Assembly: GCF_001552535.1 (NCBI RefSeq)
Contig: NZ_BCRJ01000011.1
Coordinates: 1 to 64,000 of the forward strand
Reading direction: 5' to 3'
DNA: 64,000 nt
From: Nocardioides jensenii JCM 1364 = NBRC 14755
GTDB taxonomy: Bacteria; Actinomycetota; Actinomycetes; Propionibacteriales; Nocardioidaceae
Position 1 is the first letter of the stretch; every line of letters begins with the position of its first letter. The notes under the pieces were generated by a model that ran no database searches, was not told the DNA's origin, and saw nothing but the letters and a program-made list of their open reading frames with translations. This document shows, piece by piece, positions 13,269 to 48,287 of the stretch. Both the position numbers and the translations under genes were made by a program.

Positions 13269-13283
13269 GGCGGACATCACTGC

Positions 13284-15342: not shown

Positions 15343-18051
<2,709 letters not shown>

Positions 18052-18068
<17 letters not shown>

Positions 18069-20039: not shown

Positions 20040-20043
20040 GCGC

Positions 20044-24192: not shown

Positions 24193-24239
24193 TGCACTCG
24201 GCAATTTCAGGGCGGGTTCCGAAGTGCAGTCAACAGGAC

Positions 24240-28970: not shown

Positions 28971-29327
28971 CTACTGATCCTGCTCGGGGTCGGGAAGAGG
29001 GCGACCAGCGACGTAGTCGATCCAGATCTTGCCGACTTCCTCAGCGCGGGCGGGGTCGGTCTCCCACAGCACAACCCGCCCCTTTGCACGGCGGTCGCCC
29101 CGCGGGTGGTCGGCGGTGACCAGTCCCAGGTCCTCGAGCGCAGATAGGTGACGGCGCACCTGACTGGGGTCGACGCCGATTGCCTTGGCTAGTTCCGGCG
29201 CGCTCATGGCCCGGAGTGAGAGGTGCCGCAGGATCTCGGTGCGCGCACTGTTGCCAATCGCGTCGATGATTGCCAGCACCCCCTCGGGCATCGTGGGCGG
29301 CTTCGACAGACGTGGCACGCGCTGCAT
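28971..29327 (-). CDS. ArsR-like winged-helix regulator
   Basis: 118 aa. A winged-helix domain: ARTEILRHLSLRAMSAPELAKAIGV is the stretch before the recognition helix DPSQVRRHLSALEDLGLV, and the wing has KGRVVLWE (stretch 29062-29258). No metal-binding cysteines are seen, so it is probably not a metal sensor. It reads away from the lipoprotein/Tad operon. The spacer contains a candidate operator (29373-29405) and promoter copy E, so it could regulate itself and the pilus operon. Confidence 0.8.
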   Translation of the reverse strand: MQRVPRLSKPPTMPEGVLAIIDAIGNSARTEILRHLSLRAMSAPELAKAIGVDPSQVRRHLSALEDLGLVTADHPRGDRRAKGRVVLWETDPARAEEVGKIWIDYVAGRPLPDPEQDQ

Positions 29328-29739: not shown

Positions 29740-29772
29740 TGTCCGATCTGTACTGCCGCCGGTTGCCTTCGC
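29740..29772 (+). promoter_or_regulatory. Conjugation promoter motif, copy E (Tad operon)
   Basis: TGTCCGAT (29740-29747), 15 nt, TTGCCTTCGC (29763-29772). It precedes the lipoprotein-Tad-LysM/BTAD gene run (29916-41465) with no other promoter candidate of note between, so it links the pilus genes to the T4SS promoters B, C and D. Confidence 0.65.
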
Positions 29773-29808
29773 TGTTAGAGAGCCCCACCCAGAGGGAAGG
29801 ACGTCACC

Positions 29809-29919
29809 TTGAACCCGACGCGCAGTACGGCGCGGTCGGCAACCCGTCGGCCATGTCGTCAAGACTGGTGCCCCAGGCCCGTGCATCGGGCGACTCGGGC
29901 TCAGGAAGGACGCTCATGA
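29809..29919 (+). CDS. 36-aa Arg-rich leader ORF coupled to lipoprotein
   Basis: TTG start with AGGGAAGGA 7 nt upstream, and a stop that overlaps the lipoprotein start (ATGA). Too short for homology. It may simply deliver ribosomes to the downstream start or act as a leader peptide. Confidence 0.35.
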   Translation: MNPTRSTARSATRRPCRQDWCPRPVHRATRAQEGRS

Positions 29920-30539
29920 AGCGCACTCTCATCGCTGCAACCGCTCTCGCCCTGGCGGGAACCCTCGCCGGCTGCGGGGGTAACGACGAGCCGAAGGCCG
30001 ACCCGACGCAACCACCCACTACGAGTTCGTCGCCGACCCCTACCAGCGACGCAGGCGGCCCGCCAACTGACTGGGAATCGAACTTCACCCAGGCAGAGCT
30101 GGCCGCGGGCAAGAAGGCCCTCGCCCGCTGGCAGAAGTGGCGCCAGCTCTCGGCCGAGATCTACCGGAACGGCGTGCTCACCCCGGGAGCCAAGGCCACG
30201 CTCCAGGAGTACGACTTCTGGTGGCAGCGCGACATGGTGACTTTGGGTGAGACCTACGAGAAGGGCGGCCTGCGACGAGAGACCGACGTCGAAGCTCTGT
30301 GGTCCTACGTGAAGTCAGTTCGGCTCAACAACGGTGGCAAGTCAGGCGAAGTAGTGATCGTCGAATGCACCGACTACGAGCCTCTGCGCTACACCCGAAA
30401 CGGGAAGCCGCAGAAGATCAACAAGCCGAAGCATCTCGTGACGCCGCTGCTGATCACGATGACCAAGCCGGACGAGCAGCATGGCTGGATGTATTACGAG
30501 ACAGATCTGAAGGACAAGAAGTCGTGCGCCGCGGAGTGA
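29916..30539 (+). CDS. Secreted lipoprotein
   Basis: 207 aa from ATG 29916, with AGGAAGGA before it. The signal peptide MKRTLIAATALALAGTLAGC ends in a lipobox (LAGC), then comes a Thr/Pro/Ser linker (about 35 residues) and a globular domain with ALARWQKWRQLSAEIYRNG. The domain resembles the SnoaL/NTF2-like cores of lipoproteins near actinobacterial pilus or T4SS genes, but I do not recognise a family. First structural gene of the Tad operon. Confidence 0.85.
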   Translation: MKRTLIAATALALAGTLAGCGGNDEPKADPTQPPTTSSSPTPTSDAGGPPTDWESNFTQAELAAGKKALARWQKWRQLSAEIYRNGVLTPGAKATLQEYDFWWQRDMVTLGETYEKGGLRRETDVEALWSYVKSVRLNNGGKSGEVVIVECTDYEPLRYTRNGKPQKINKPKHLVTPLLITMTKPDEQHGWMYYETDLKDKKSCAAE

Positions 30540-31447
30540 GTGCTGCGGCAGCAGCCGCGATGTTGGTCTCGTTTGTCGTGGTTCTGGTGATCGGCACCAG
30601 CAGCCCTGCAATGGCGGACTGCCCTCCTGACCCGGTCGACGAGACGGGACTTTGCCTCTCCGACACCGTCCCAGGGAACCCGGGGGATACTGATCCCGGC
30701 GACCCGGGGGATGCGGGCGATGGGCCTAGCGGACCGGCTTGCCCCGGCGCTCCGAATGGGATCTGCGTCAACGACTACGGCTTCATCTGGAACAGCGCCC
30801 ACAACTGCTACGCATTCCCGCTGGACCCGCAGCCCGAGGCGAACAGCCCCCTTTGGGGTGGCCATGACCCGGCCGAAGGCACCATCTGGTCGTGCGATCC
30901 CACGGTCTCGGTTCCCGAGAACGTGTGGTTCGTGCCCAACGGGGCGGCGGTGATCGACCCGGGCCAGGTGGCGCAGCAGCTCGTGGAGCGGGCTCCGTTC
31001 GAACTGGCCAACGCGCACATCGCGCCGCCACCGACCTACCACACGTACATCAGCTACTCGAATTGGATGTGGATCCCCGAGGGCCAGTGGCACGACGTGT
31101 CGGTGAGCCTGACGGTTGCGGGCGCGACGGTCACATTGACGGCGACGCCGGACTACACCTCGTGGGACATGGGCAACGGAGCGACCGTCTCGTGTGTGGG
31201 TCCCGGCCGTGAGTGGGTCAAGGGGATGCCTGAGGACGCGCCGACGAACTGCTCGTACGCCTACGACGAGATGAAGGACCCCGAGGGCGACAAGTGGACG
31301 GTGTCGGCTCGGATCAACTACTCGGTCGGCTGGACCTGTACCGGCAACTGCGGCGGCCAGACCAGCGGCGACCTCGGCGACGTGACCGCGCTCGCCGGTG
31401 ACTCGACCTCGATCACGGTGTATCAGCGACAGACAGTAGTGAGGTAG
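30524..31447 (+). CDS. Secreted protein of the Tad operon, unknown function
   Basis: 307 aa from GTG 30524, overlapping the lipoprotein by 16 nt. The signal peptide (VSAAAAAAMLVSFVVVLVIG, then SSPAMA-D) is followed by a Gly/Asp/Pro linker with GNPGDTDPGDPGDAGD and a domain with six or more cysteines (NSAHNCYAF, WSCDPT, VSCVGPG, NCSYAY, WTCTGNC), probably disulfide-linked outside the cell. PKD/Ig-like beta pattern in SLTVAGATVTLTATP. Tad operons of actinobacteria often carry such an ATP-GTP-free secreted protein here. Confidence 0.75.
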   Translation: MRRGVSAAAAAAMLVSFVVVLVIGTSSPAMADCPPDPVDETGLCLSDTVPGNPGDTDPGDPGDAGDGPSGPACPGAPNGICVNDYGFIWNSAHNCYAFPLDPQPEANSPLWGGHDPAEGTIWSCDPTVSVPENVWFVPNGAAVIDPGQVAQQLVERAPFELANAHIAPPPTYHTYISYSNWMWIPEGQWHDVSVSLTVAGATVTLTATPDYTSWDMGNGATVSCVGPGREWVKGMPEDAPTNCSYAYDEMKDPEGDKWTVSARINYSVGWTCTGNCGGQTSGDLGDVTALAGDSTSITVYQRQTVVR

Positions 31448-31449
31448 AT

Positions 31450-32229
31450 GTGACCAGCCTGGATTCTTGGACGTCGCGCCGGGCCAACGACCGACGTGCG
31501 GCGCCGCTGCCGGGCGGCCTGCCTGGTGCGGCCTCGCTGTCGAAGGCGGTGTCGAAGGCTCCGCGGAAGTACGGCCAGATGCTGATGAGCGTGCTGGTTG
31601 TGATCGCGGCGGTGATCGCGGGCGGTTGGCTCTATGTCAACAAGGGCGGCGTGGAGGAGGTGTTGGTGGTTGCCCAGCCGATCCCGGCTGGGCACCCGAT
31701 CACCGAGGACGATGTCCGCACCTCCAAGGACCCGCTCCTGGTCTCGCGAAGCGTGTCTGGCATCGACGGGGCGATCCTGGTCTCCGATGTCGACTCGGTG
31801 TTCGGGCAGCGCACCACGGTCGCACTGTTGCCGGGTCAGGTGCTGACACAGGACTCGCTGACCAGCGACCTGCTGCCGCAGGAGGGCAAGCGCCTGATCG
31901 CGGTGAACCTCCCGGCCGGCCGGGTGCCTGAGACCTTGGCCCCTGGTTCGGTGGTCGACGCGATCGCGGTGCCGCAGGAGGGGCAGGCGGGTGACCCGAA
32001 GGCTCTCGATGACCCGGTGGTGATCTCGGCCGGTGCCACGGTGTACTCCTCGAAGCAGTCGCATGACGGCACCGTGGTGGTCACGATCCTGATCGCGGAG
32101 ACCGACGCGAAGACGGTGGCGGCGTACGGGGCGGTGGGGCAGCTGACGCTGCTGCAGGCCCCGATTACCGAGGGTGACCCAGCTGACTCCGCCCCGCAGG
32201 ACGACGGCGCTGCCGGAGGGCAGGGCTGA
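31450..32229 (+). CDS. cpaB: CpaB/RcpC-like SAF-domain pilus assembly protein
   Basis: 259 aa from GTG 31450. A membrane anchor (residues about 39-58, MLMSVLVVIAAVIAGGWLYV) is followed by a SAF domain: VVAQPIPAGHPITEDDVR is the typical entry, then LLPGQVLTQDSL and GKRLIAVNLPAGRVPETLAPG. CpaB/RcpC proteins act outside the membrane in Tad pilus assembly. 2 nt after the previous stop. Confidence 0.82.
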   Translation: MTSLDSWTSRRANDRRAAPLPGGLPGAASLSKAVSKAPRKYGQMLMSVLVVIAAVIAGGWLYVNKGGVEEVLVVAQPIPAGHPITEDDVRTSKDPLLVSRSVSGIDGAILVSDVDSVFGQRTTVALLPGQVLTQDSLTSDLLPQEGKRLIAVNLPAGRVPETLAPGSVVDAIAVPQEGQAGDPKALDDPVVISAGATVYSSKQSHDGTVVVTILIAETDAKTVAAYGAVGQLTLLQAPITEGDPADSAPQDDGAAGGQG

Positions 32230-33062
32230 TGCTCATCGCTGTGTGCTGCGACCGCGGCGCCCCGGGGTCGACGACGACGTCGTTGGCGCTGGGCGTCTCG
32301 ACACCGGAGCCCACGATCGTGGTCGAGGCCGACCCGTACGGCGGTGACCTCGCCCTGGGGTGTGTAGCACCCGGTGGCCATGGTGAGGCGTTCCCGCCGA
32401 CTCCGACGGTGCTGACCTTGGCGACCGAGGCACGTACGTCGGTGACCCCCGGTCTGGCGGCCAGCAAGGCCCATGAGTTCACGGGATCGACGCGGATAGT
32501 GCCGGGACACTTCTCGGCCGAGCAGGCCGCAGGCGTGAAGAACTGGGCTCCACTGGCCGAGGCGCTGCGCGCCTCTGCATCGCGCGTCGTTGCCGACCTC
32601 GGACGGATCCACTCCAGTTCGCCGAGCATCCCGGTGGCGGCGGCCGCCGATGTGGTCGTGATGGTGACCCGCCCCGAGGTGGGTGCGGTGATGCACCTCA
32701 AGGACAGGCTGGAGCGGCTCGCTCCGGTGCTGGCGAACATCCGCAACGCCCCGCCGATCGTGGTGCCGGTGGTGGTGACGCCGAAGCGGATCGCCGGGTC
32801 GGTGCTCGAGCACGTCGGTCGGATGCTGGCGCCGAGCAACGCCGCCGGCGTCATCGCCGGGATCGGCTGGATCGCGCTGGACCCCACAGGGGTCGAGGCG
32901 ATTCACGCCGGCCAGGTCGGCGGCAAGAACGAGCGCACGCCGCTGCTGAGGTCCGCGGGCGTACTCAACGACCAGATCAACCAGGCCGCTGGTGTCGGGC
33001 CGTACGGCGCGCATGAGGCTGCAGCGGTGGACGCGTACGCCGGCCAGGGGGGAGAGGCGTGA
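32229..33062 (+). CDS. tadZ: TadZ/CpaE-like ParA-family protein with degenerate P-loop
   Basis: 277 aa. The N-terminus keeps the ParA/MinD fold start, but the deviant Walker A reads RGAPGSTTTS, without the lysines of KGGxGKT. VVEADPYGGDLA and VVADLGRIHSS mark the switch regions. TadZ/CpaE proteins localise the pilus machine and often have poor ATPase motifs. Start and stop overlap both neighbours. Confidence 0.75.
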   Translation: MLIAVCCDRGAPGSTTTSLALGVSTPEPTIVVEADPYGGDLALGCVAPGGHGEAFPPTPTVLTLATEARTSVTPGLAASKAHEFTGSTRIVPGHFSAEQAAGVKNWAPLAEALRASASRVVADLGRIHSSSPSIPVAAAADVVVMVTRPEVGAVMHLKDRLERLAPVLANIRNAPPIVVPVVVTPKRIAGSVLEHVGRMLAPSNAAGVIAGIGWIALDPTGVEAIHAGQVGGKNERTPLLRSAGVLNDQINQAAGVGPYGAHEAAAVDAYAGQGGEA

Positions 33063-34561
33063 TGAACAGCAACAACGGAGCCAGCTCGAATGGCCGTGGC
33101 GCGCACGTGAACGGGATGCACCTGAAGCAGCTCGTGCCGGTCGACCAGGTACTGGTCAAGCGTCTCCAGTCGCGCGTGGGTGCTCGCCGCGGGAAGGCGC
33201 TGGAGGAGTTCCGCCGGAACAGCCAGCCGATCCCCAAGGGCGAGGACGCCCGGCAGCACACCGAAGCCCTGCTGGCCTCGGTGCTGGCCGAGTACGAGTC
33301 CGACCTGGTCGAGGACGGCCACAACCCGCTGGAGGAAGACGCCCGGGACCGGCTGGAGGCCGCGCTCAAGGCCCAGTTGTTCGGCGCGGGCAACCTCGAT
33401 CAGCTGCTGGAGGATCCCGAGGCCGAGGACATCGTGATCAACAGTTGGCAGAACGTGTTCGTCACCTACGCCGACGGCACCAAGGCGCAGATGCCGCCGG
33501 TCGCCTCCTCGGACAAGGAGCTGGAGGAGATCGTCAAGACGATTTCTGCCCACGACGGCCTGTCCACCCGTCCCTTCGATCTGATCAACTACAACGTCAC
33601 CCTCAGGCTGCACGACGGCTCACGTCTGCACGCGGTCCAGGGGGTGAGCGCGAACGGTCTGTCGATCTCGATCCGCAAGCACCGCCACAAGAGGGCCACC
33701 CTGCTTCCGCTTCCCGGGCTGGCCGAGCGGGAGCGCGCCGCCGGGGTTCCGGAGTCGCTGCGCACCAAGGACCTGCTGAGCGAGGGAACCGTCGACCACG
33801 ACCTCGCCGCGTTCCTGTCCGCGCTGGTGAAGGCGCGTCAGAACATCATGATCGCCGGAGCCGTAAGTGCGGGGAAGACCACGCTTGTGCGGGCGCTGGC
33901 CTCCGAAATAGACCCGATCGAGCGTCTGGTCACCGTGGAGCGGTCCATCGAGCTCGGCCTGCATGAGGACCCCGAGCGCCACCCCGACATCGTGCCGCTC
34001 GAGGAGCGGCTGGCGAACGTCGAAGGAGAAGGCGCAATCGGGTTGGCCGACCTGGTGCGCAACTCGCTGCGGATGAACCCCTCGCGGGTGATCGTGGGCG
34101 AGGTCTTGGGTGATGAGGTCATCACGATGCTCAACGCCATGGCCCAGGGCAACGACGGGTCGCTGAGCACGATCCACGCGAACTCCTCGCGCGATGTCAT
34201 CGGGAAGATCCAGACCTACGCTCTGCAGGCTCAGGAGCGGTTGCCGTTCGAGGCCACCAACGGCCTGATCGCGAACGCACTGAACTTCATCGTGTTCCTT
34301 CGCCGGATCCGCACCGAGGACGGCCGTCAGCGCCGGATCGTCGAGTCGATCCGTGAGGTTGCCGGACGTGATGAGGACGGCGTGAAGACGACCGAGTTGT
34401 GGAAGTACAACAGGGCCACCGGTCGCACCGAGTTCACCCGGAAGGCGATCATCCGCGAGGAAGCCCTCCTCGATGTCGGCTGGGACCCCGATGGCACGAC
34501 GGACCTGAACAGGTTCGCCGAGCCGAGCGGTGCCAACGGCGATGAGGGGTGGCAGATCTGA
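33062..34561 (+). CDS. tadA: TadA/CpaF secretion ATPase
   Basis: 499 aa from ATG 33062 (GTG 33059 also possible). VirB11-type ATPase: N-terminal domain with PEAEDIVINSWQNVFVTYADG, Walker A AGAVSAGKTTLVRAL, Asp box RNSLRMNPSRVIVGEVLGDE with Walker B, and the His box GNDGSLSTIHANSSRDV. It powers pilus extension, and probably retraction, at the inner membrane. As in other CpaF proteins, about 200 residues precede the ATPase core. Confidence 0.93.
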   Translation: MNSNNGASSNGRGAHVNGMHLKQLVPVDQVLVKRLQSRVGARRGKALEEFRRNSQPIPKGEDARQHTEALLASVLAEYESDLVEDGHNPLEEDARDRLEAALKAQLFGAGNLDQLLEDPEAEDIVINSWQNVFVTYADGTKAQMPPVASSDKELEEIVKTISAHDGLSTRPFDLINYNVTLRLHDGSRLHAVQGVSANGLSISIRKHRHKRATLLPLPGLAERERAAGVPESLRTKDLLSEGTVDHDLAAFLSALVKARQNIMIAGAVSAGKTTLVRALASEIDPIERLVTVERSIELGLHEDPERHPDIVPLEERLANVEGEGAIGLADLVRNSLRMNPSRVIVGEVLGDEVITMLNAMAQGNDGSLSTIHANSSRDVIGKIQTYALQAQERLPFEATNGLIANALNFIVFLRRIRTEDGRQRRIVESIREVAGRDEDGVKTTELWKYNRATGRTEFTRKAIIREEALLDVGWDPDGTTDLNRFAEPSGANGDEGWQI

Positions 34562-35436
34562 TGACCCTCTTCGTGGCCTGCGTCCTGGCGGTCAGCCTCG
34601 GCATCATCGGGGTGATCCGCACCGCCCGCGGCAAGAACCTGCTCCCGGCGCGGGTGACCACGGCCCGGCGCAAGGTGGCCGACCCCCAGCAGGCTGCCCG
34701 GCAGGTCACGATCGCGCTGATCGTCGGCGTCGTGGTCGGGATCTTGACCCGTTGGCCGGTGGCCGGGCTGATGGCGGTCGCTGTGGTGATCTTGTGGCCG
34801 AAGCTGGCGCGCTCGGGTGCGATCGAGAAGCACAGCGTGGCCAAGATCGAGGCGATCGCGAACTGGACGGAGTCGCTGCGCGATGCCGCTGCCTCCGAGT
34901 CGGGGCTGGAGCAGGCGCTGCCGGCAACCCTGGACGGTGCGCCGGCGCTGCTGCGCCGGCCGTTGCGGAACCTGGTCAACGCCCTGGACCTGCGTACGCC
35001 GCTGCCGGTCGCGTTGGCCCACTTCGCCGACGAGGTCGATGACCGGGGCGCCGACAAAGTCGTGATCGCACTCTCGCTGACAGCCCAGCAGCGTGCCGGG
35101 AGCCTCAAGCGGGTGCTCACGACGCTGGCCTCCAATACTCGTGCCGAGCTGGAGATGCGCCGCAAGGTGCTCACCGAGCGCAACGGCGTCCGCCGTCAGT
35201 CCAACCAGGTCGCGCTCGGCCTGCTCGCGCTGGCCGGGCTGCAGGCGGTCTTCCTGCGCGGCTGGGTCGAGCCGTACAGCACGGTGTACGGACAGATGGT
35301 CCTCGCCGTGCTGGCCGCGGTCTACGTGGGCCTGCTGGTGCGGTTGCAGCGGCTGGCCTCCCCTGAGCCACACCCCCGATTCCTGTCCGGGGCAGACGCC
35401 CTGGCACAGGCCACGGGCCGGGAGGTGGCCTGGTGA
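34561..35436 (+). CDS. tadB: TadB-like inner-membrane platform protein
   Basis: 291 aa from ATG 34561, overlapping the tadA stop. Type II secretion F-domain: WTESLRDAAASESGLEQALPAT and the repeat-like LTAQQRAGSLKRVLTTLA. Hydrophobic segments lie at residues about 1-20, 55-85 and two near the C-terminus. It pairs with TadC to form the platform on which TadA acts. Confidence 0.88.
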   Translation: MTLFVACVLAVSLGIIGVIRTARGKNLLPARVTTARRKVADPQQAARQVTIALIVGVVVGILTRWPVAGLMAVAVVILWPKLARSGAIEKHSVAKIEAIANWTESLRDAAASESGLEQALPATLDGAPALLRRPLRNLVNALDLRTPLPVALAHFADEVDDRGADKVVIALSLTAQQRAGSLKRVLTTLASNTRAELEMRRKVLTERNGVRRQSNQVALGLLALAGLQAVFLRGWVEPYSTVYGQMVLAVLAAVYVGLLVRLQRLASPEPHPRFLSGADALAQATGREVAW

Positions 35437-36341
35437 TTCCGATGCTGATCGTCTCCGCGGTGGCGGGCCTCGGGCTGCTGCGGCTCCACCGGCTGGCGTT
35501 CCCCTCCGCGCCGCCGCTGGCCGACCAGGCGGCTCGGTGGGAACGGGCACGCGCCCGGGCCGGTCGCCGTGCCCGTCTCGACATCGCACCTGAGGACCAG
35601 ACCTGGTCGAAGAGGGCCGCGGAGTGGTTCGCCGAGCAGCTGCGCACCCGCCGCCCCGACGACATGCAGACCTACGAGCGTGACCTCGCCGTCACGGGTC
35701 AGCCGATGGAGGAGTGGCTGGCCAAGCTTCTGGTGTGGTTCCTCATCGGCCTTCTCGGCCCGGTCGCGCTGGTGCTGCTCGGCAACGCCGCCGGACTGGG
35801 TATCCCGATCCTCGTCGCTCCCGCCCTGGGGCTCGTGAGTGCCGTGGTCGCGGTGATCGGCGAGGTCCGCCAGCTGCGGGAGACCGCCGGCAAGCGCCGC
35901 GAGGCACTGTGCGACGCGCTCTCGGACTTCCTCGACCTGGTCGTGATGTCGATGGAGGGCGGCCGCAGCCACGCCGACGCGCTGCCCACCGTGGCGCAGA
36001 TCGGCACCGGGTGGGCCTTCCACGCCCTCTACGACGCGATCGACAACGCCCGGCCCAACGGCATGACCCCGTGGGAGGCGCTGGGCGAGGTCGGTGAGCG
36101 GTTCGGCGTCGTGGAGCTGCTCGACCTCCGGGCATCGCTGAATCTGGCGCAGGACGAGGGCTCCAGCATCCGCAACACCCTCATCGCCCGCGCCCAGTCG
36201 ATGCGTGATGCCCGACTGGCCGATGCCCACGCCCGCGCGAACAAGTCCACCGACGCGATGCGCAACAACCTGATGGTCATGGCGCTGGTGGCCGCCGCGT
36301 ACGTGATCCTCGCCCGCGTCCTGTTCCTGTTCACCGCCTAG
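35433..36341 (+). CDS. tadC: TadC-like inner-membrane platform protein
   Basis: 302 aa. F-domain with LCDALSDFLDLVVMSMEGGR and LNLAQDEGSSIRNTLIARAQ. Transmembrane segments at about residues 1-14, 105-150 and the C-terminal NLMVMALVAAAYVILARVLF. ATGA overlap with tadB. Confidence 0.88.
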   Translation: MIPMLIVSAVAGLGLLRLHRLAFPSAPPLADQAARWERARARAGRRARLDIAPEDQTWSKRAAEWFAEQLRTRRPDDMQTYERDLAVTGQPMEEWLAKLLVWFLIGLLGPVALVLLGNAAGLGIPILVAPALGLVSAVVAVIGEVRQLRETAGKRREALCDALSDFLDLVVMSMEGGRSHADALPTVAQIGTGWAFHALYDAIDNARPNGMTPWEALGEVGERFGVVELLDLRASLNLAQDEGSSIRNTLIARAQSMRDARLADAHARANKSTDAMRNNLMVMALVAAAYVILARVLFLFTA

Positions 36342-36377
36342 CCCGAACCTCTACTGCTTGAAGAAAGGAACCATCTC

Positions 36378-36575
36378 ATGAACGAGTCCACCCACCTGAA
36401 GATGGCGATCGAGTACTGGCGCTCCCGCTGGGAGGTCGCCCAGCGAGACGAACGCGGAGCCTCGGCACCGGAGTACCTGGTGCTGCTGCTCGGCATCCTG
36501 GCGATCGCGGCACTGGCGATCATCGCCGTGCGCACCTTCGTCACCAACAAGGGCAACGAGCTCAACGGCCAGTAG
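36378..36575 (+). CDS. Flp-type pilin
   Basis: 65 aa, a typical actinobacterial Flp pilin. Prepilin cleavage site RDERG/ASAPEYLVLLLG with Glu at +5 of the mature protein, then a hydrophobic helix to about residue 55. The major pilus subunit is inferred from size and position. Good ribosome-binding site (GAAAGGAA). Confidence 0.85.
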   Translation: MNESTHLKMAIEYWRSRWEVAQRDERGASAPEYLVLLLGILAIAALAIIAVRTFVTNKGNELNGQ

Positions 36576-36624
36576 GACCGCAGATCCACGCTGCTACTGG
36601 ACAACGCGACGAAGAAGACCAGCC

Positions 36625-37038
36625 ATGACCATTCGGAAGCGCCTCCGGCCCCTGGGGTGCCTGCTGCCGCGCCGCCGCGACGAGCGCGGCATCGCGGCCC
36701 CGGAGTTCGTGGTCGTCATGCCGCTGGTGATGCTGGTCTTCCTGATGCTGGTGCAGTGGTCGGTGCAGTTGTACAACGACCGGATCGTGCACGCCGCGGC
36801 CCGTGAGGCAGCGGTCGACGCGGCCTCCTGGGAAGGCACCGAGGACGCTGGCAGGCAGACCGCCAACGAGTACCTGGCCGACTCTGGCAGCGACCTGTCC
36901 AACACCAGCGTCAAGATCAAGGTGGGGGCGACCGAGGTCACCGTCACCGTCTCCGGCGAGGTGATGACTCTCGTGCCCGGCTTCACCAAGCAGGTCTCCG
37001 CGACTGCCACCGTGCCACGGGAGAGGTTCGCAGAATGA
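36625..37038 (+). CDS. tadE: TadE-like minor pilin
   Basis: 137 aa. RRDERG/IAAPEFVVVMPLVM has the same pre-cleavage motif as the Flp pilin and Glu at +5, then a transmembrane helix and an extracellular beta-rich domain (KIKVGATEVTVTVSGEVMTL). Overlaps the next gene by 4 nt. Confidence 0.85.
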   Translation: MTIRKRLRPLGCLLPRRRDERGIAAPEFVVVMPLVMLVFLMLVQWSVQLYNDRIVHAAAREAAVDAASWEGTEDAGRQTANEYLADSGSDLSNTSVKIKVGATEVTVTVSGEVMTLVPGFTKQVSATATVPRERFAE

Positions 37039-37751
37039 CGCGGCCGCCGAGCGCGACACCAGACTGGCGAGACGTCATCGGCTCCTTCAGCCACGACGGC
37101 CCCGGCGGCGATGAAGCGCTCGCAGTCCAGCATCCGGACCTGATGGCCGCTCTCCAGGAGCTGACGCCCGACGACGAGCCGCTGAAGATCGGCGGGGAGA
37201 GCGTCACCCGCCAGACAGATGGGTCTTGGCGAGTCGGACGCGACAGGAACCTTGCCTCGCCGTGGGTCGTGGTCCAGTCGCTCCGTTCCTCCCGCCACCC
37301 CTACTCGCGCCACGGCCGTTCCTGGCGAGAGCGTCTTCGCGCACCCCGGGACGAGCGTGGCTACGCCGCCGTCGAGCTGCTGGCGATGACTACCGTGCTC
37401 GTCGGATTTATCACCGTCGTCGTCGGCGGCGGACGGATAGTCGACTCGAACAGCCAGGTTGATGACGCTGCCTATGCGGCCGCGCGGGCAGCATCCCTGG
37501 AATCGAACTTCCAGGCAGGACAGATCGCCGGCCGAGACGCTGCGGAGGATGCGCTGGCCGACCGGGGCAAGGCCTGCACCCGCCTGACCGTGTCGTTCGC
37601 GGGAACCGACTTCCGCACCTCAGGACACGTGAGGGTCGAGGTCACCTGCCACGCGAACCTGAGCGACGTTGTCGGGTTCGGCCTGCCTGGCGCCAAGAAC
37701 TTCACCAGCACGGCTGTGGTCCCTATCGAGCAGTACCGGCGGCTGCCGTGA
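37035..37751 (+). CDS. TadE-like minor pilin with long N-terminal extension
   Basis: 238 aa. The pilin core starts late: RDERG/YAAVELLAMTTVLVG lies near residue 108, so about 107 residues precede the prepilin site. The extension (DWRDVIGSFSHDGPGGDEAL, then KIGGESVTRQTDGSWRVGRD) is polar and would sit in the cytoplasm until cleavage. Prepilin leaders are normally 5-30 residues. A downstream start near residue 90 is possible but lacks a clear ribosome-binding site. The extracellular part has two cysteines. Confidence 0.75.
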   Translation: MTRPPSATPDWRDVIGSFSHDGPGGDEALAVQHPDLMAALQELTPDDEPLKIGGESVTRQTDGSWRVGRDRNLASPWVVVQSLRSSRHPYSRHGRSWRERLRAPRDERGYAAVELLAMTTVLVGFITVVVGGGRIVDSNSQVDDAAYAAARAASLESNFQAGQIAGRDAAEDALADRGKACTRLTVSFAGTDFRTSGHVRVEVTCHANLSDVVGFGLPGAKNFTSTAVVPIEQYRRLP

Positions 37752-38191
37752 CGGGTTCACGATTTCTGACGTCCCCGATGAGCCGACGGCTGCGGCGTCG
37801 GCGCGATGAGCGGGGTGTGGTCTCGACGTGGACGATCCTCATGGCCTCGGGGGTGTTCCTGGTGCTGCTGGGCCTGGTCTATGACGGCGGCAACGCCATG
37901 AATCAGCGGATCGCGGCGCACCGCGCCGCTGAGCAGGCCGCTCGTGCGGCCGCCGACGAGATGCGCGGCGTCCGTGACGGCACCGAAGGAATCAACCAGG
38001 CGACCGCGACCGCCCGCGCCAACCAGATCCTGCAGCAGGCCGGCTGGAGCGGCACCGTGAACATCGACGGCCTCGACGTCACGGTGAGGGTGACCGGTGG
38101 ATCGGACAACGCGTTCCTCAATGTCCTCGGCTTCACAAGCTTCCCGGTCGACGAGACCGGCACCGCAACGTCCATCACGGGCCCGAACTAG
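37748..38191 (+). CDS. TadE/TadG-like pilus protein
   Basis: 147 aa. RRRDERG/VVSTWTILMASG repeats the RDERG leader motif, but the Glu at +5 of typical pilins is replaced. The following helix and RIAAHRAAEQAARAAADEMRG are typical of the Tad/helicase-like N-terminus of TadG. Without Glu5 it may not enter the fibre in the usual way. ATGA overlap upstream. Confidence 0.78.
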   Translation: MTGSRFLTSPMSRRLRRRRDERGVVSTWTILMASGVFLVLLGLVYDGGNAMNQRIAAHRAAEQAARAAADEMRGVRDGTEGINQATATARANQILQQAGWSGTVNIDGLDVTVRVTGGSDNAFLNVLGFTSFPVDETGTATSITGPN

Positions 38192-38216
38192 GTTCCCGGG
38201 AGAGAGAAGAAACATC

Positions 38217-41200
38217 ATGCTGGGATTGGTCAAGCGACTCGGAGCCCTCGCACTGCTGCTGGGCCTCCTCGTGGGGTTCCCTGCCCTGCTGCTCGCTGCT
38301 GTGGGCAACGCGTGGCCTGACGGCGGGTTGAACGAGCTGTCGCTCATGAGCAACTCGGCCGTGCTCGGGATGGTCTCGCTGTTGGGCTGGTTCGTGTGGG
38401 CGCAGTTGCTGCTGTGCACCCTGTGGGAGATCCCGCCCGCATTGCGACACGAGACCGAGGGGGCCTCGAGGCTGCCGATCGCGGTCGGTGGCCAGCAGAG
38501 GTTCATACGGATGCTGGTCCACACCGTGCTCGCGGTCGGAGTCACCTCGACGACGCTGCTCGGTTCGCACGCAGGCACCTCGGAGGCTGCCCCGGCGGCA
38601 CCTCTGCGGCCTGTCACCCATGTGGCGCACCAGGCTCCGGTCGCGAACCCGGGGGCCAGTCCCGCCGCCTCGCCGGTCAAGGGGGCCCCGGACAGCACCC
38701 AGGACCAGCGGGCCGACCATCCGAGGATCGTTACTGACAAGGGCGACACCTTGTGGGGCCTGGCCGAGAAGCACCTTCGCGACGGGTTCCGCTGGCAGGA
38801 GATCGCGGACCTGAATCAGGGGCGGGCCATGTCCGACGGCCGCACCTTCACAAACCCGCGCAGCATCGAGCCTGGTTGGGAGCTGCTGTTGCCCGTCGAT
38901 GCGACCAACCTGCCCGGCGACCAGGTCCCCGGCGCAGAGACCGAGCACGCCGTCGCGGCCGGTGAAACGCTGACCGGGATCACCAAGGAGACCACCGGCG
39001 ACCCCGACAACTGGCAGGCGCTGTACGAGGCCAACAAGGACGTCATCGGCAGTGACCCCGACCTGATCTACCCCGGACAGGTTCTCGTACTGCCGGGCGC
39101 TGGTGACGTCGACCCGGCCACGGGCACCGGCCGGCCGCCCCAGCGAGAGCCCGGGCAGCGCGACCACGTGCCCGGCAAGTCCACCGACGGCCAGGACGGT
39201 CAGGGAGACGACACGGGGGCCGACGGTTCCGGCGGAGACATCGACGCTGCGCAGGACCAGCAACAGACGCCCGCGGAGCCGGCTACGCCGACCGCACCGT
39301 CGCAAGGATCGGCACAGGTGGCCCCGGGCAGCACGGAGCAGGTCTCCACCGAAGCCGACGAGGCCAGCGACGAGGGCGGGATCACGGGCCTGCGGGCGCT
39401 GCTGGCCACCGCCGCGTGTCTGTCGGTGGGAGCCCTGGGACTGGTGGCCGGCAACCGGCGTCGCCAGTTCCGGAGGCGCCGGATCGGCCGCACGATTGCC
39501 TCGACGCCCGACGAGCTCGTGGAAGTGGAACAGGCGATCCTCGAGCACGGCTCAGAGGCGCAGGAGGACGTCGCGTTCCTCGACCGGGCTCTTCGGCACA
39601 TCGCCGCGTGCTGCAAGGTGGCAGGCCACCGGCTTCCCCAGCTTGGCGCCGCCGTGCTGGGCGATGAGGACCTGACCCTGCTCTTCACCGACCCCGCCCC
39701 CGGCGAAGCGCCGGAGGGCTGGACCGCGACCGATGACGCCCGGGCCTGGATGCTGCCGCGCTGGACCTTCCTCGAGGAGGACCTTGAGAACCAGCCGGCC
39801 CCGTACCCGGCGTTGGTGACCATCGGCCAGGACGAGGGCGGTCGTACCTGGCTGCTCGACCTGGAGACGCTGGGCATGTGCGGGATCGGCGGCGATCCGG
39901 CGCAGGTGGCTGACCTGGCGCGGTTCATGGTGGCCGAGCTGGCGGTCAATGCATGGTCGGAGGGGAGTGAGGTGCTGCTGGCGGACCAGTTCGGGACCGA
40001 GACGATCGGCCTCAACCCCGCCCGTCTGCGGCAGGTCCAGCGCAGCGACGCCCTGGCCCGGGCAGCTGTGCTGACCGGTGAGATGGGCGAGGGCGAGCAG
40101 AACCTGGATGCTGATGTGTTGACGCGCCGCCGCGATGGGCTGCTGCTGGACAGCACCAACCCGGTGGTGGTCGTGGTGTCCTCCCGTCCCGAGGGCGAGT
40201 TCGTCGCCGACATCGAGGACCGGGACCGCTCCCGGGTCGTGGTCGTGCACGGGGCTGAGGAGACGCCGGCCGTGGAGTTGGCCGGCGACGGGATGGCGTT
40301 CTTGTCGATGTGGGGCATCAGCGTCAAGGCCTTCACGCTGCCGACCTCCGAGGCGGAGGCCATGGCGGCGCTGATGGCCTCGACCCGCAACCTCGAGGAC
40401 GAGCCGGTGCCGGCCACGCAGTCCGACGATGGTCCGCTGGGCAAGTACGCCCGTGCCGACGGGTCGCTGCGTGAGGAGTACACCGAGCCGCGGCGCACCG
40501 AGGGCAACGACCCGTCCTCGATGCTGCCCGATGCCGACGAGGTCTACCTGGCCACCGCGGCCACGACCACCGAAGACCTCGCCTCGGCCGCGCCGAGTGT
40601 TCCCGAGGAGGTCCGCGTCGAGATCGCGGCACTCGACCCGACGCTGGACCAGGACGTCGCTGACTGGTTCGACGAGTCCTCGCCGCGGCCCAAGGTGCAC
40701 CTGCTCGGTCCGGTCTCGGTCACCGCACTCAACGGCGGCGACCCCGCGGCGATCGACAACGCTGGGGGCACGGTCTCCTTCATCGCCTACCTGGCCGTTC
40801 AGGACCAAGGGGTCACGGGGGAGCGTGCCGCCGTAGCGTGCGGGTGGAAGACGCAGAAGACGGTTCAGAACCGTGCCACCAACGCCCGCTTCCTGTTGGG
40901 CACCCGGCCCGACGGGAGCGACTGGCTGCCGGACGCAAGCATGAGCGCTGGCGCCCGGCGGGGCACCAGCCCCACGTACGAGCTGGTGCGGGGGACCGGC
41001 GGGGTCCTCAACAGTGCGGACTTGTTCGTGCGGCTCAAGCACCGGGCCGAGCGCCGTGGTGACAACGGCTGCGAGGAGGACTTGGTGACCGCGCTGTCGT
41101 TGGTGACTGGTGCCCCGTTCGAGGCGGCTACCGAGAGCCGGTTCAAGTGGTTGTTCAAGTCGGGGCAGCAGCGGTGGGACGAGCTCCTGGTGGGGGCCAT

Positions 41201-41465
41201 CCATGACGCGGCCCACATCCTGGCGACGCGGGCGGTCACGGCTGGCCGGACCGACTTGGTCCGGGTGGCCTGTGACGCAGCCAGGAGGGCCAGCCCTCAT
41301 AGTGACATCGCGTGGCTCGACGAGGCCGCGGCCACCGAAGCCGAGAGCGGTCGTGACGCCGCTGGCGAGCTCATCCGCGAGCAGGTCCTCGACCGGTACG
41401 ACGAGGACCTCCCGCCGCGTTCGGAGGCCGTCGTGGAGCAGCGCGAGTGGGGTGCCACCGGGTAG
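38217..41465 (+). CDS. Membrane LysM-BTAD regulator-like protein
   Basis: 1082 aa from ATG 38217. Three N-terminal transmembrane segments (about 8-30, 45-68, 98-117), two LysM peptidoglycan-binding modules (about 168-220, starting IVTDKGDTLWGLAEKHL, and about 240-295 with WQALYEANKDVIG), a Gln/Asp/Pro-rich linker, another helix near 390-410, then a large cytoplasmic region. The C-terminal 250 residues look like an OmpR-type DNA-binding plus BTAD pair (KVHLLGPVSVTALNGGD; then helical repeats to the end) as in SARP regulators. LysM-BTAD proteins accompany actinobacterial conjugation and Tad loci; signalling from the wall to transcription is a guess. Last gene before the terminator. Confidence 0.85.
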   Translation: MLGLVKRLGALALLLGLLVGFPALLLAAVGNAWPDGGLNELSLMSNSAVLGMVSLLGWFVWAQLLLCTLWEIPPALRHETEGASRLPIAVGGQQRFIRMLVHTVLAVGVTSTTLLGSHAGTSEAAPAAPLRPVTHVAHQAPVANPGASPAASPVKGAPDSTQDQRADHPRIVTDKGDTLWGLAEKHLRDGFRWQEIADLNQGRAMSDGRTFTNPRSIEPGWELLLPVDATNLPGDQVPGAETEHAVAAGETLTGITKETTGDPDNWQALYEANKDVIGSDPDLIYPGQVLVLPGAGDVDPATGTGRPPQREPGQRDHVPGKSTDGQDGQGDDTGADGSGGDIDAAQDQQQTPAEPATPTAPSQGSAQVAPGSTEQVSTEADEASDEGGITGLRALLATAACLSVGALGLVAGNRRRQFRRRRIGRTIASTPDELVEVEQAILEHGSEAQEDVAFLDRALRHIAACCKVAGHRLPQLGAAVLGDEDLTLLFTDPAPGEAPEGWTATDDARAWMLPRWTFLEEDLENQPAPYPALVTIGQDEGGRTWLLDLETLGMCGIGGDPAQVADLARFMVAELAVNAWSEGSEVLLADQFGTETIGLNPARLRQVQRSDALARAAVLTGEMGEGEQNLDADVLTRRRDGLLLDSTNPVVVVVSSRPEGEFVADIEDRDRSRVVVVHGAEETPAVELAGDGMAFLSMWGISVKAFTLPTSEAEAMAALMASTRNLEDEPVPATQSDDGPLGKYARADGSLREEYTEPRRTEGNDPSSMLPDADEVYLATAATTTEDLASAAPSVPEEVRVEIAALDPTLDQDVADWFDESSPRPKVHLLGPVSVTALNGGDPAAIDNAGGTVSFIAYLAVQDQGVTGERAAVACGWKTQKTVQNRATNARFLLGTRPDGSDWLPDASMSAGARRGTSPTYELVRGTGGVLNSADLFVRLKHRAERRGDNGCEEDLVTALSLVTGAPFEAATESRFKWLFKSGQQRWDELLVGAIHDAAHILATRAVTAGRTDLVRVACDAARRASPHSDIAWLDEAAATEAESGRDAAGELIREQVLDRYDEDLPPRSEAVVEQREWGATG

Positions 41466-41498: not shown

Positions 41499-41549
41499 GG
41501 CTTCGGCCCTGTCTCACCTGGATGGTGGGACAGGGCCGAAGCCCGTTTT
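41499..41549 (+). terminator. Strong rho-independent terminator of the Tad operon
   Basis: A 15-bp perfect stem (ggcttcggccctgtc 41499-41513 with its complement 41529-41543), 15-nt loop, then cgtttt. It lies 34 nt after the LysM-BTAD stop and separates the pilus operon from the regulator/T4SS genes. Confidence 0.9.
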
Positions 41550-41668
41550 CTGGTCGCCCACGGGGGTGTCCGCAACCGTTCGGACGCACTTTTCTGACTT
41601 CTTCTCGGAGGGGGCTGGTGAGCGGCCTCACCGGCTCTGACCTGCGGTTTTGCGTTTGGTGAGCGGGT

Positions 41669-41732
41669 GTGGTGAGCGGTCACCGGGCCGGTCCGGGGGT
41701 GTGGTGAGCGCTGTGGTGAGCGAGGTGGTGAG
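41669..41732 (+). repeat. GTGGTGAG repeat array upstream of sigma-like gene
   Basis: GTGGTGAG at 41669, 41701, 41713 and 41725, the last three with an exact 12-bp period; looser GGTGAGCG copies occur at 41617 and 41658. The array ends about 50 nt before the sigma-like ATG. The same octamer at 12-bp period follows promoter copy A. Probably an operator array; an iteron-type origin cannot be excluded. Confidence 0.55.
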
Positions 41733-41783
41733 GGGTCGGTTCTGCAGTAGGCGCGTCCTGATCGCCTCTCTCGGAGGACCGCC

Positions 41784-42683
41784 ATGTCGGCCAGTCACCC
41801 CGTCCACGAAGTCACCATCGGCGCCGCATCCCAAATCCCGAACCCACGCCTGTCGTGGAGCGACGGCCAGCACCGGCGGCGCAAGGCCCAGAGTGCCCTG
41901 GCGACCTCGGTCATCAGCAGCTTGGAGGGGTCCGGGAAGTGGACCGAGTGGCAGCAGGTCGAGCCCCGGCTGGCCGGGTTCGCCAGCCTCGAGGACGCAC
42001 GCGAAGGATGGCGTCGACGCGACAAGCGCTGCTATCAGGTGGTGGCCGGCCTAACCGCCCTCGGGTCCCGGCGCGGGGGCGACGACGACGACGCCGCGCT
42101 GGCAGTGGCGGTGCTGCTCGAGGACGGTGTGAACCGGGTAGCCATGACCCTGGCCGACGTGTGCGAGATCGACGACGTCAACGCCACGGTGTGGGAGGAG
42201 GTCAAGGGAGCCGAACCGCAGGTGGGCTGTCACGCCGCCACCTACCTGCTGCGCCGCGCCCGGCAGCGACTGAGCCGCCCGGCCGCCGGTATGGTCTCCC
42301 GGATCGACACGACGTCCCTGGACGCACGGACCGAGACGAACAACTCGTTGGTGCTCGGCAGCCATACCGACGGCGCGGGCCGCTCCAGCCGCGCCAGCCA
42401 GGACCGCGACCTGATCCTCGCGGTCCCCGACGTCGAGGACCCGGTCGAGGACCTGGCCGACCTGCTCATCTGGGCGCGCGAGGTCGGCGTGATCGACACC
42501 GAGCAGATCGACCTGCTCGTCGAGCTCCTTGCCGCGGAGAACGACGGCCTCGGTCGCGAGGAGGCGCAGCGGGTCGTCGGCGAGCGCCACGGCGTCGCGA
42601 TGCGGACGATCCGGCGTCGCCGCGACCGCACCGCCGCGCGGCTGCGGGACGCCGCCCCGAGGTACCTGGCCGCCATCGCCTGA
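41784..42683 (+). CDS. Sigma-70-like / HTH regulator of the conjugative element
   Basis: 299 aa with a good ribosome-binding site (GGAGG). The middle (ADVCEIDDVNATVWEEVKG, then CHAATYLLRRARQRL) is reminiscent of sigma region 2. The C-terminus (GREEAQRVVGERHGVAMRTI followed by RRRRDRTAARL) is a region-4-like helix-turn-helix. Between them lies an acidic linker. Not a canonical ECF: it is longer and region 2 is weak. Its place between the pilus and secretion operons and next to the repeat array makes it the prime candidate to read the five TGTCCGAT promoters. Confidence 0.65.
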   Translation: MSASHPVHEVTIGAASQIPNPRLSWSDGQHRRRKAQSALATSVISSLEGSGKWTEWQQVEPRLAGFASLEDAREGWRRRDKRCYQVVAGLTALGSRRGGDDDDAALAVAVLLEDGVNRVAMTLADVCEIDDVNATVWEEVKGAEPQVGCHAATYLLRRARQRLSRPAAGMVSRIDTTSLDARTETNNSLVLGSHTDGAGRSSRASQDRDLILAVPDVEDPVEDLADLLIWAREVGVIDTEQIDLLVELLAAENDGLGREEAQRVVGERHGVAMRTIRRRRDRTAARLRDAAPRYLAAIA

Positions 42684-42714: not shown

Positions 42715-42745
42715 CCGCGCCCTGTCCGATCCGGACAGGGCGCGG
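42715..42745 (+). terminator. 13-bp hairpin overlapping promoter copy B
   Basis: ccgcgccctgtcc / ggacagggcgcgg with a 5-nt loop. It starts 32 nt after the sigma-like stop, so it can end that transcript. Its left arm and loop contain the TGTCCGAT box of the next promoter. Confidence 0.6.
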
Positions 42746-42755
42746 TTGCTTCTCC
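42723..42755 (+). promoter_or_regulatory. Conjugation promoter motif, copy B
   Basis: TGTCCGAT (42723-42730), 15 nt, TTGCTTCTCC (42746-42755), then AAAC and the ATG of the next gene at 42760. The start codon lies 4 nt past the second box, with no ribosome-binding site, which points to a leaderless mRNA. Confidence 0.75.
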
Positions 42756-42759: not shown

Positions 42760-43008
42760 ATGAGCGAGCAGGCACACACCGCAGTCACCGTCCCCGAGCC
42801 GACCCCCGAGGTCGCCGCGCAGCTGCTGGACGTGGTGGCCGACCACAGCGTCGACCACGCGCTGTCCGACATCGAGCGGATGATTGCGCGTCTGCGCGCC
42901 GACGCCGTCGAGGCCGCGGAGGCACGCGAAGTACTCCGCAACACCCCCGCCGCCGTTCTCCGTGAAGCGCTGCGGCTCCGGGCAGCCCGGATCGAGGCGA
43001 CCCGATGA
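42760..43008 (+). CDS. Small helical protein, first gene of T4SS operon 1
   Basis: 82 aa (MSEQAHTAVTVPEPTPEV...). Acidic start, then a long amphipathic helix (LSDIERMIARLRADAVEAAE). Probably leaderless: the ATG follows promoter copy B by 4 nt. Stop overlaps the next gene (ATGA). Function unknown. Confidence 0.75.
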   Translation: MSEQAHTAVTVPEPTPEVAAQLLDVVADHSVDHALSDIERMIARLRADAVEAAEAREVLRNTPAAVLREALRLRAARIEATR

Positions 43009-43971: not shown

Positions 43972-44301
43972 ATGATCATCGAGACCATCTCGGAGGTCGC
44001 CATCCAGATCGCGGCCGCCGGAAACATCAAGGCCGAAGGCGTCGGCGACGTGTGCGCTCAGGCCCCGACCGGAGTCAAGCCGTACGTCAACGACATCCTC
44101 GGCTGGGTCAAGTACGGCGTGATCGCCATCATCATCGGCGCCGGCTTCGCCTCCGCGGGGGCGCTGATCGTGGGGAAGTTCGGCCAGATGGGCCGGGCCG
44201 CTCAGATCGGCGCCTCGGGGCTGTTCTGGACCGTGATCGGCGCGATCGCGTTCGTCTGCATCTACGCCATCCTCAACGGCATCGTCGGGAACGGCTGCTG
44301 A
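43972..44301 (+). CDS. VirB2/TrbC-like T4SS pilin-type protein
   Basis: 109 aa with two hydrophobic helices (YGVIAIIIGAGFASAGALIVG and LFWTVIGAIAFVCIYAILNG) joined by a short KFGQMGRAAQ loop, the VirB2/TrbC topology. Preceded by a strong purine-rich ribosome-binding site (GAAGGAGAAG). Two cysteines (C-terminal and residue 27) may pair. Confidence 0.75.
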   Translation: MIIETISEVAIQIAAAGNIKAEGVGDVCAQAPTGVKPYVNDILGWVKYGVIAIIIGAGFASAGALIVGKFGQMGRAAQIGASGLFWTVIGAIAFVCIYAILNGIVGNGC

Positions 44302-44302: not shown

Positions 44303-45121
44303 ATGCTCACCCGGACCCGACACGTCTACCAGTCAAAGCTGGTTGACCCCGACACCGAATGGACCCGCCGCAGGCTCCAGATCCTGCTGGGGGCCGTGGC
44401 CGTCGTCGTCCTCGCCATGGCAGCGGGGGCCGTGTGGTCGGTGGTCAGCATGCTCACCGGCTCCTCGTCCGGCGACGGAACCGGGTCCGATTCGGCACAG
44501 CCCGCCCAGGACCAGCTCGCCGACAAGCAGCTGCCCGACGCGCCCTTGGAGGCCGCACAGCCCGGAAGCCTGTCCTCGGGCGAGACCGGCACCCTCCAGA
44601 TCCCGGCACCGATGGAGGTGGGGGAGGTCGGTGTTGCGACCGGGTTCCCGCACACGCCGGAGGGCGCCCTGGCTCAGCTGGCCGCGATCGACACGACCGC
44701 GTTGACCTCGGCGTCGGTTCGAGTGGCCCAGGAGGTCATCACTGCGTGGGCCGCCCCTGGTGGCCCGACGGCCGAGAGCTGGTCGGGTGTGCGGGGCCTG
44801 GCCGCGCTCCTGGAGTCCGCCGGAATGTCCTCGGAGGCGCAGAACACGATCACGATCGGCGCAGAGCCGAAGATGGGGTTCATCAAGGGCACGGTCGGGG
44901 ACGACTTCGTCATTCCGTGCATCGACTTCATCATCACCGCCACCACCGCGTCAGGCCAGCCGCAGCAGGTCGCGGCCGCCGACTGCCAGCGCATGGTGTG
45001 GCAGGACGGCCGATGGGTGATCGGCGAGGGCGAGGAGCCGTCACCGGCGCCGTCGCTGTGGCCCGGCTCCCAGGCCTCCTTCGACGCCGGCTACCAGTGG
45101 CTGGAGGTGCCCCAGTCATGA
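44303..45121 (+). CDS. VirB8-like T4SS inner-membrane protein
   Basis: 272 aa: a short cytoplasmic tail with WTRRRLQILLGAV leading into one transmembrane helix (about 27-50), an Asp/Gln/Pro linker, and a periplasmic-type domain whose C-terminal half (IGAEPKMGFIKGTVGDDFV, CIDFIITATTASG, WQDGRWVIGEGE) has the NTF2-like beta pattern of VirB8/TcpC proteins. 1 nt after the VirB2-like gene. Confidence 0.72.
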   Translation: MLTRTRHVYQSKLVDPDTEWTRRRLQILLGAVAVVVLAMAAGAVWSVVSMLTGSSSGDGTGSDSAQPAQDQLADKQLPDAPLEAAQPGSLSSGETGTLQIPAPMEVGEVGVATGFPHTPEGALAQLAAIDTTALTSASVRVAQEVITAWAAPGGPTAESWSGVRGLAALLESAGMSSEAQNTITIGAEPKMGFIKGTVGDDFVIPCIDFIITATTASGQPQQVAAADCQRMVWQDGRWVIGEGEEPSPAPSLWPGSQASFDAGYQWLEVPQS

Positions 45122-48091: not shown

Positions 48092-48124
48092 TGTCCGATT
48101 TGGCGGCCGGGCTGTTGCTTCTCC
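48092..48124 (+). promoter_or_regulatory. Conjugation promoter motif, copy C
   Basis: TGTCCGAT (48092-48099), 15 nt, TTGCTTCTCC (48115-48124), AGGC, then ATG 48129. The second box is identical to copy B. It lies in the 87-nt gap between SCO6880 and the VirB4 operon, where CCCGGCC/GGCCGGG arms could also form a hairpin. Confidence 0.75.
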
Positions 48125-48128: not shown

Positions 48129-48287
48129 ATGGAGCACCAATCCGCCCTGCCGAAGGAGACACCTGTGATGTCGACGCGATCGAGGAACCGCTCGGACCTG
48201 GGCGCGGCGGGACCGCCGCTGGTCGGTCGCCTGCACGCGATGGCGACCACGCACCCCTCGCCGCGCGTGACGACGGGGGAGTGGTGA
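48129..48287 (+). CDS. 52-aa probable leaderless ORF before virB4
   Basis: Starts MEHQSALPKETPV, 4 nt after the second box of promoter C, without a ribosome-binding site. Its stop overlaps the virB4 GTG (GTGA), so its translation would feed virB4. Basic, Ser/Thr/Arg/Pro-rich; no family recognised. Internal GTG/ATG at 48165-48170 preceded by AAGGAG is an alternative start. Confidence 0.5.
   Translation: MEHQSALPKETPVMSTRSRNRSDLGAAGPPLVGRLHAMATTHPSPRVTTGEW

Follow-up and report, generated by a model that had tools for sequence, protein, structure and literature searches.

Gene content of the locus

The window analysed here, a stretch of 64,000 nucleotides on contig C11 (88,477 bp) of the 5.1-Mb Nocardioides jensenii JCM 1364 genome (G000), carries a cassette of Tad pilus genes beside a conjugative type IV secretion system (T4SS). 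The Tad cassette (29740-41465) comprises CpaB, TadZ-like, TadA, TadB, TadC, Flp, TadE/F/G and a LysM membrane protein, all co-directed from 29916; downstream of it lie a gene named sigL here and then a T4SS of the SCO6880/VirB4/VirD4 type. The evidence presented below indicates that the two are very probably co-regulated, through promoters that were retained while the Tad cassette itself was exchanged.

The tad operon, like the terminator, repeats, sigL and T4SS genes that follow it, lies on the + strand, and upstream of it, on the − strand, is an ArsR-type winged-helix regulator (28971-29327; HTH_20, 2.5e-11) that is 94% identical in plasmid pNOCA01. The first gene, read from sequence, encodes a lipoprotein (29916-30539) and is followed by a secreted protein of no assigned function (30533-31447), conserved in linked Tad cassettes and present in 8 of 13 related loci. 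A CpaB/RcpC-like SAF protein (31450-32229; SAF 6e-9, pilus_cpaB 5.4e-6 and under cut-off) precedes a TadZ/CpaE-like protein (32229-33062) placed by position only, for which family searches including NCBIfam gave no match. The TadA/CpaF ATPase (33059-34561; T2SSE 5.3e-27) has as its best NCBIfam match the “TadA family conjugal transfer-associated ATPase” TIGR03819 (6.9e-60, under its cut-off), while TadB (34549-35436; T2SSF 4e-5) and TadC (35433-36341; T2SSF 1e-3) form the expected membrane pair of adjacent T2SSF-like proteins, with weak scores below the Pfam cut-off. The major pilin Flp (36378-36575), DERGASAPEYLVLLLG, was too short, at 65 aa, for the list of open reading frames (ORFs) and was read from the sequence, where it displays the G/xxxxE prepilin motif (GASAPEY). 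The TadE pseudopilin (36625-37038; TadE 1.2e-10), a TadE/F-like pseudopilin (37035-37751; TadE 1.8e-5), a TadG-like protein (37748-38191; Tad 1.1e-7) and the LysM membrane protein of 1083 residues (38214-41465; LysM 8e-11) complete the cassette.

A strong intrinsic terminator (41499-41543; 20-pair stem, U tail) separates the tad-lysM unit from the sigma-T4SS unit, and direct repeats of GGTGAGCG, comparably spaced in relatives, lie upstream of sigL (41617-41735), which itself spans 41784-42683 and is sigma70-like by predicted fold. The T4SS begins with operon gene 1 (42760-43008), identified from its sequence and an annotated homologue in pNOCA01, and continues with a small membrane protein of 109 aa conserved in relatives (43972-44301; two hydrophobic helices), a VirB6/TrbL-like membrane protein (45112-46506; six helices, TrbL 0.067 on a longer ORF) and an SCO6880 family protein (46503-48041; 1.1e-120). 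Family searches detected both ATPases of a conjugative T4SS, VirB4 (48281-49825; VirB4-type P-loop 1.3e-12) and the VirD4/TraG coupling protein (53738-55237; TraG-D_C 1.1e-25), and a MobF relaxase is encoded on the same contig (C11:71387-72607). The cell-wall hydrolase of the T4SS (49899-52565) is an unusual fusion in which two endonuclease/exonuclease/phosphatase stretches stand ahead of SLT and CHAP-like parts; it is 86-95% identical in pNOCA01, pTC1 and genome G228, and 79% in G154.

A promoter motif shared by tad and transfer units

Four exact copies of the bipartite motif TGTCCGAT-N14-GTTGC are found in the window, at 29740, 42723, 48092 and 52621, all on the + strand. One stands ahead of the tad operon (29740-29766), 176 nt from the lipoprotein ATG, and the others precede the T4SS operon (42723-42749), the VirB4 unit (48092-48118) and the coupling-protein unit (52621-52647). 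At each of these three transfer sites the ATG lies exactly 37 nt from the first T of the motif. The two motif blocks begin 22 nt apart, which fits −35 and −10 elements with the A of the ATG as the start site. The tad promoter has an A with no ATG in the start position, and about 140 nt of leader come after it. Among 36 motif sites collected from related loci (the window, further contigs of the same genome, pNOCA01, pTC1, G228, G141, G154 and two PD653-B2 loci), the ATG follows the first T by exactly 37 nt in 20, as in leaderless genes.

A chance origin of the motif was ruled out by four lines of evidence. When up to three mismatches were allowed, the window contained seven matches against 2.08 expected, a number reached in none of 100 shuffles. 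The exact motif occurs eight times in the whole genome, five of them on C11, while the backwards control gave none. When the non-coding DNA of the window was searched blind for bipartite motifs, with three of the sites covered (the fourth was masked as coding), TGTCCGAT-N14-GTTGC was the sole result. Finally, among 245 genomes of the family Nocardioidaceae, any exact copy is present in 23 and absent from 222, and eight or more copies occur only in G000, G228, G141 and G154, the four genomes in which identity of VirB4 to the window's protein is 91% or more. The exact copies outside C11 (G000:C6:8502, C10:49668 and C10:51221) are either parts of the same element or extra targets of the regulon. 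The preliminary description, which had proposed that the Tad genes carry the same promoter motif as the T4SS operons, is thus borne out for tad and three transfer units.

A second promoter class at equivalent positions

The sigL genes of two family members, G089 and G202, are 28% and 27% identical, respectively, to that of the window and 41% identical to each other, and an exact search of both genomes gave no copy of TGTCCGAT-N14-GTTGC. A blind search in G089 yielded TGTCCA-N19-CTTG, which was refined to TGTCCAYT-N16/17-CTTGR. This variant lies ahead of the lipoprotein-tad operon and directly after sigL in both genomes, and in G089 also ahead of the coupling-protein gene. Across G089 and G202, 10 of its 12 genome-wide matches coincide with the element or lie close to it; the total in 34 other genomes is 5, and the backwards control gave 6 over all 36. 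The pattern was refined on the G089 and G202 sites, and these counts are therefore a test of its specificity for the element rather than of its presence. The promoter has changed together with the regulator while tad stayed in the regulon, and this is the strongest evidence that the coupling is real.

Cassette exchange and the LysM protein

Comparison of the elements revealed that the Tad cassette has moved independently of the transfer genes. VirB4 of the window is 99% identical to that of G228 and 96% identical to that of pNOCA01, whereas TadA is 47% identical to the former and 99% to the latter. The gene-by-gene comparisons with relatives exclude rows for flp, the lipoprotein and orf42.7 that were read one base out of frame, and a 53245 row containing a stop. 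Three cassette types can be distinguished, in the window and pNOCA01, in pTC1 and G228, and in G141 and G154, and TGTCCGAT-N14-GTTGC is present in tad promoters of all three (window and pNOCA01; pTC1 and G228; G154).

The exchange has its junction within the LysM protein, which consists of helices (1-71), LysM repeats (about 176-295), a further helix predicted by hydropathy (390-408), a cytosolic part and an HTH/BTAD-like end. Identity to the G228 protein is 32-47% before residue 400 and 93-99% after it, and this jump falls at the predicted third membrane helix (390-408), the hinge of the exchange, indicating that the outer half travels with the pilus and that the regulator and T4SS retain the inner half. 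BTAD matches at the C-terminus are weak (4 of 8 homologues, best 0.0021), and the structure model of this end, with a mean pLDDT of 41, was not used; the protein at the corresponding place in a Kineococcus cassette is annotated as BTAD. In Kineococcus pKRAD01 (L127 25437-26384) the tad cassette has a prepilin peptidase gene directly after the BTAD protein, a gene absent from the cassette described here.

Linkage of Tad and T4SS across genomes

VirB4 relatives were found in 90 of the 245 family genomes. Those at 50% identity or more amount to 47 loci in 36 genomes, and in at least 35 of the 47 a TadA-like gene lies no further than 50 kb away. Each of these 35 genes is upstream on the same strand, at a distance of 13.9-47.6 kb. 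Four of the 12 unlinked loci lie no more than 7 kb from a contig end on the side where tad would be expected. Among distant VirB4 proteins (about 30-35% identity), a class typed by eye from 29 rows, TadA is linked at 34 of 67 loci as a lower bound, 33 of them with tad upstream on the same strand. For one VirB4 gene and those TadA matches that were split, the second piece does not enter these counts. The rate expected by chance is about 3% per locus, a rough figure that supposes six copies of TadA in each genome and counts related loci as though they were independent; the loci are in fact related, and the linkage counts are accordingly not independent.

Direct reading showed the same order of Tad genes in several relatives, and also in this genome's three other VirB4 elements (one on C3 and two on C8, C8a and C8b), each of which has a tad-lysM cassette with MobF near; the C3 element gave no CpaB match. 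In total the genome has four elements, on C3, C8 (two) and C11, every one of them with a MobF, a VirB4 and a tad-lysM cassette of its own, and a fifth MobF lies on C58. That Tad is merely a chromosomal neighbour of an insertion was ruled out by the gene order common to the four elements. Linked Tad genes also occur beyond the family, in pTC1 and in pINDO-MA30-4, the frames of the latter being short and apparently broken, and a class-wide search found VirB4 in 116 of 296 genomes.

The preliminary description had allowed that Tad might prove absent or chromosomal in most close relatives, and had taken the element for an integrative and conjugative element (ICE). The former is not the case within the family and applies only further out, as set out below. 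As to the latter, the element may be either an ICE or a plasmid; the nearest relatives are plasmids, and the pNOCA01 ParA gave matches of only 29-33% in this genome.

The candidate regulator sigL

Folding models point to sigL as a probable sigma70-family factor. In structure searches with its model, the best 50 matches in each were all sigma factors or their complexes. Residues 80-168 of the model match region 2 of Mycobacterium tuberculosis SigC (Z 8.1, rmsd 2.6 over 86) and residues 219-293 match region 4 of M. tuberculosis SigD (Z 8.0, rmsd 2.2 over 62), such that both folds appear to be present and in order, at moderate model confidence. Several results count against this identity. Searches of Pfam, NCBIfam and PDB profiles gave no sigma family match, alignment with hhalign to an annotated sigma factor of Arthrobacter alpinus failed (probability 0.2%), and the model, built from three sequences, has a mean pLDDT of only 63 with a core mostly at 65-86. 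The best Foldseek E value was 1.6e-3, none falling below 1e-3. Since helical proteins can reach Z values of about 8 unspecifically, the assignment is regarded as likely rather than firm. sigL is also the probable reader of the TGTCCGAT-N14-GTTGC promoters. No sigL relatives were found in viral contigs.

Other features of the window

A large SNF2/methylase-type gene (7643-11242 and 24192-26711) is apparently interrupted by some 13 kb of inserted DNA, at approximately 11214-24230, that contains an ISL3-like transposase, a permease, two tyrosine recombinases and thiamine genes, which we take by reading to be thiO, thiG, thiE and thiD. At 57660-60909 an OLD-like AAA/TOPRIM protein is followed by a UvrD-type helicase, presumably the make-up of a Gabija defence system.

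A model for Tad pili in mating contact

These observations suggest a model in which the Tad cassette and the T4SS would be two modules of one conjugation regulon. The element-encoded sigma factor (41784-42683) would direct RNA polymerase to the TGTCCGAT-N14-GTTGC promoters, which would drive the tad-lysM operon and the three transfer units. The donor would then extend the Tad pilus and hold or draw in a recipient, and with the recipient thus near, the short channel of the Gram-positive T4SS could pass the MobF-DNA complex. Cassette exchange with its junction at the third membrane helix of the LysM protein would alter the outer, recipient-facing part and leave the cytosolic and regulatory part in place. 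The LysM-BTAD protein may also feed back on the sigL promoter; its action on the GGTGAGCG repeats is a guess. The gene content, the linkage, the sharing of promoters and their retention across exchange are established by computation. Production of the pilus and its use in mating contact are an inference towards which we lean, with some reserve.

A more elaborate version may be imagined, in which conjugation is triggered by contact. The pilus would both grip and sense the recipient, the LysM-BTAD protein would relay a signal from pilus or cell wall and activate the sigL promoter via GGTGAGCG, and sigL would fire the T4SS; the swappable outer half of LysM and the Tad cassette would together determine the specificity of mating, like interchangeable heads fitted to a common transfer engine. 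We regard this scheme as speculative and rather unlikely.

A number of findings weigh against a mating-contact pilus or limit its reach. The Tad set is near-complete, as was originally proposed, and no prepilin peptidase (TadV) was found near the tad locus or on C11; the two of the genome, on C4 and C17, could act on this pilus in trans. In pNOCA01 the genes tadB and tadC are separated by an integrase cassette on the opposite strand (L009 24370-27630), which may break or silence the plasmid's pilus. In G148, G198 and the elements on C3, C8a and C8b, neither TGTCCGAT-N14-GTTGC nor another clear shared motif was found, the blind search in these five returning nothing above the reverse-strand control except one three-site pattern in C8a that is not at tad. 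In G198, one of the 12 unlinked loci, with VirB4 71% identical, the roughly 29 kb read upstream contain no Tad, and none was found within 20 kb of the T4SS in pCHL and Pimelobacter, both Nocardioidaceae, or in plasmids of Pseudonocardia, Dermacoccus, Streptomyces Alt2 and Arthrobacter alpinus. The pilus is thus not obligate for such systems. Conversely, a Streptomyces flavofungini plasmid has a tad-lysM cassette with no such T4SS within 15 kb, implying another role or partner there. Homologous elements do not always carry both modules, and the tie between Tad and T4SS is strong in one lineage and not universal. Within that lineage, the proposal that Tad is wired into the conjugation programme is upheld by shared promoters, conserved synteny, promoters kept over exchange and a variant promoter at equivalent places.

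Alternative explanations

Tad pili are mostly known as adhesins, and the pilus could be general adhesion or biofilm cargo that benefits host and element alike, with promoter sharing merely tying it to crowding. The Streptomyces cassette without this T4SS and the relatives with the transfer module only would fit such a role, whereas the use of the same promoters as the transfer units, kept over three cassette types and two promoter classes, would not, and the presence of four elements in one genome, each with its own tad set, would be redundant for adhesion. We therefore consider cargo of this kind unlikely, while granting it some weight. A pilus serving DNA uptake or surface exclusion in element-carrying cells would have a parallel in Micrococcus luteus, whose transformation requires Flp pili (PMC4322843), but no competence genes were noticed in the window and the regulon is common to export rather than uptake functions, making this quite improbable.

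Gram-positive T4SSs are not known to have VirB11, and TadA scores to VirB11 models (1e-36); Tad parts might accordingly work within the T4SS, with TadA as the missing VirB11 ATPase and no pilus made. TadA, however, comes with a full pilus set, Flp and three pseudopilins, and related T4SSs without Tad show no annotated substitute nearby. The candidacy of TadA as a lone VirB11 was set aside on account of the full set, and the wider proposal is very improbable. Passive linkage, in which the modules are simply inherited as one and the motif is an ordinary promoter of the host, draws on the relatedness of the elements and the resulting dependence among linkage counts. It has to contend with cassettes that were swapped while promoters were kept, with a motif that occurs only eight times in 5.1 Mb and is missing from 222 of 245 family genomes, and with a variant motif that follows the element too, and we give it hardly any credence.

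Relation to known systems and significance

The nearest counterparts, plasmids pNOCA01 of Nocardioides sp. JS614 and pTC1 of Paenarthrobacter aurescens TC1, share with the window the module order, the promoter motif and a VirB4 that is 95-96% identical; pTC1 differs in its Tad type (TadA 47%) and pNOCA01 in the integrase insertion described above. The preliminary description considered a conjugative role for Tad unusual in such elements, which holds only in part. Cutibacterium acnes plasmids carry tad next to conjugation genes, with a functional link that the authors call unclear (PMC5696575). Plasmids p09-9, p15.1.R1 and pIMPLE-HL096PA1 resemble the present element as actinobacterial plasmids with tad beside VirB4/FtsK conjugation genes, and they have sigma70 and anti-sigma genes upstream of tad and a pilin-like protein on the surface (PMC5696575, PMC3666418). 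The accessible parts of these reports do not mention promoters common to the modules, exchange of cassettes or linkage across a family, and the likeness drawn here is one of description.

Type IV pili serve recipient contact in IncI1 R64 (PMC10286972) and in PAPI-1 (PMC5297154), and this precedent supports the mating-contact reading; those pili are type IVb and Gram-negative, while the components here are of type IVc (Tad) and from an actinobacterium. The M. luteus Flp/Tad pilus is likewise actinobacterial and involved in DNA exchange, through transformation and not conjugation (PMC4322843). Searches of the open-licence literature gave no paper with an experimental link between Tad pili and a T4SS of Gram-positive bacteria, and to judge from that literature four findings are new: the promoters common to tad and transfer units, their survival when cassettes were exchanged, the second class of promoter, and synteny throughout the family.

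How Gram-positive T4SSs bring mating partners together is poorly known, and they are not known to have long conjugative pili. In the present elements, shared dedicated promoters of two classes link a Tad pilus to a system of this type, in an element family spread over the Nocardioidaceae and two Micrococcales plasmids. The question left open for the C. acnes plasmids, whether Flp pili are linked to conjugation, becomes directly testable, and exchangeable pilus cassettes, if the proposed role is true, would offer a way to study which cells can mate with each other and how degradation plasmids such as pTC1 spread.

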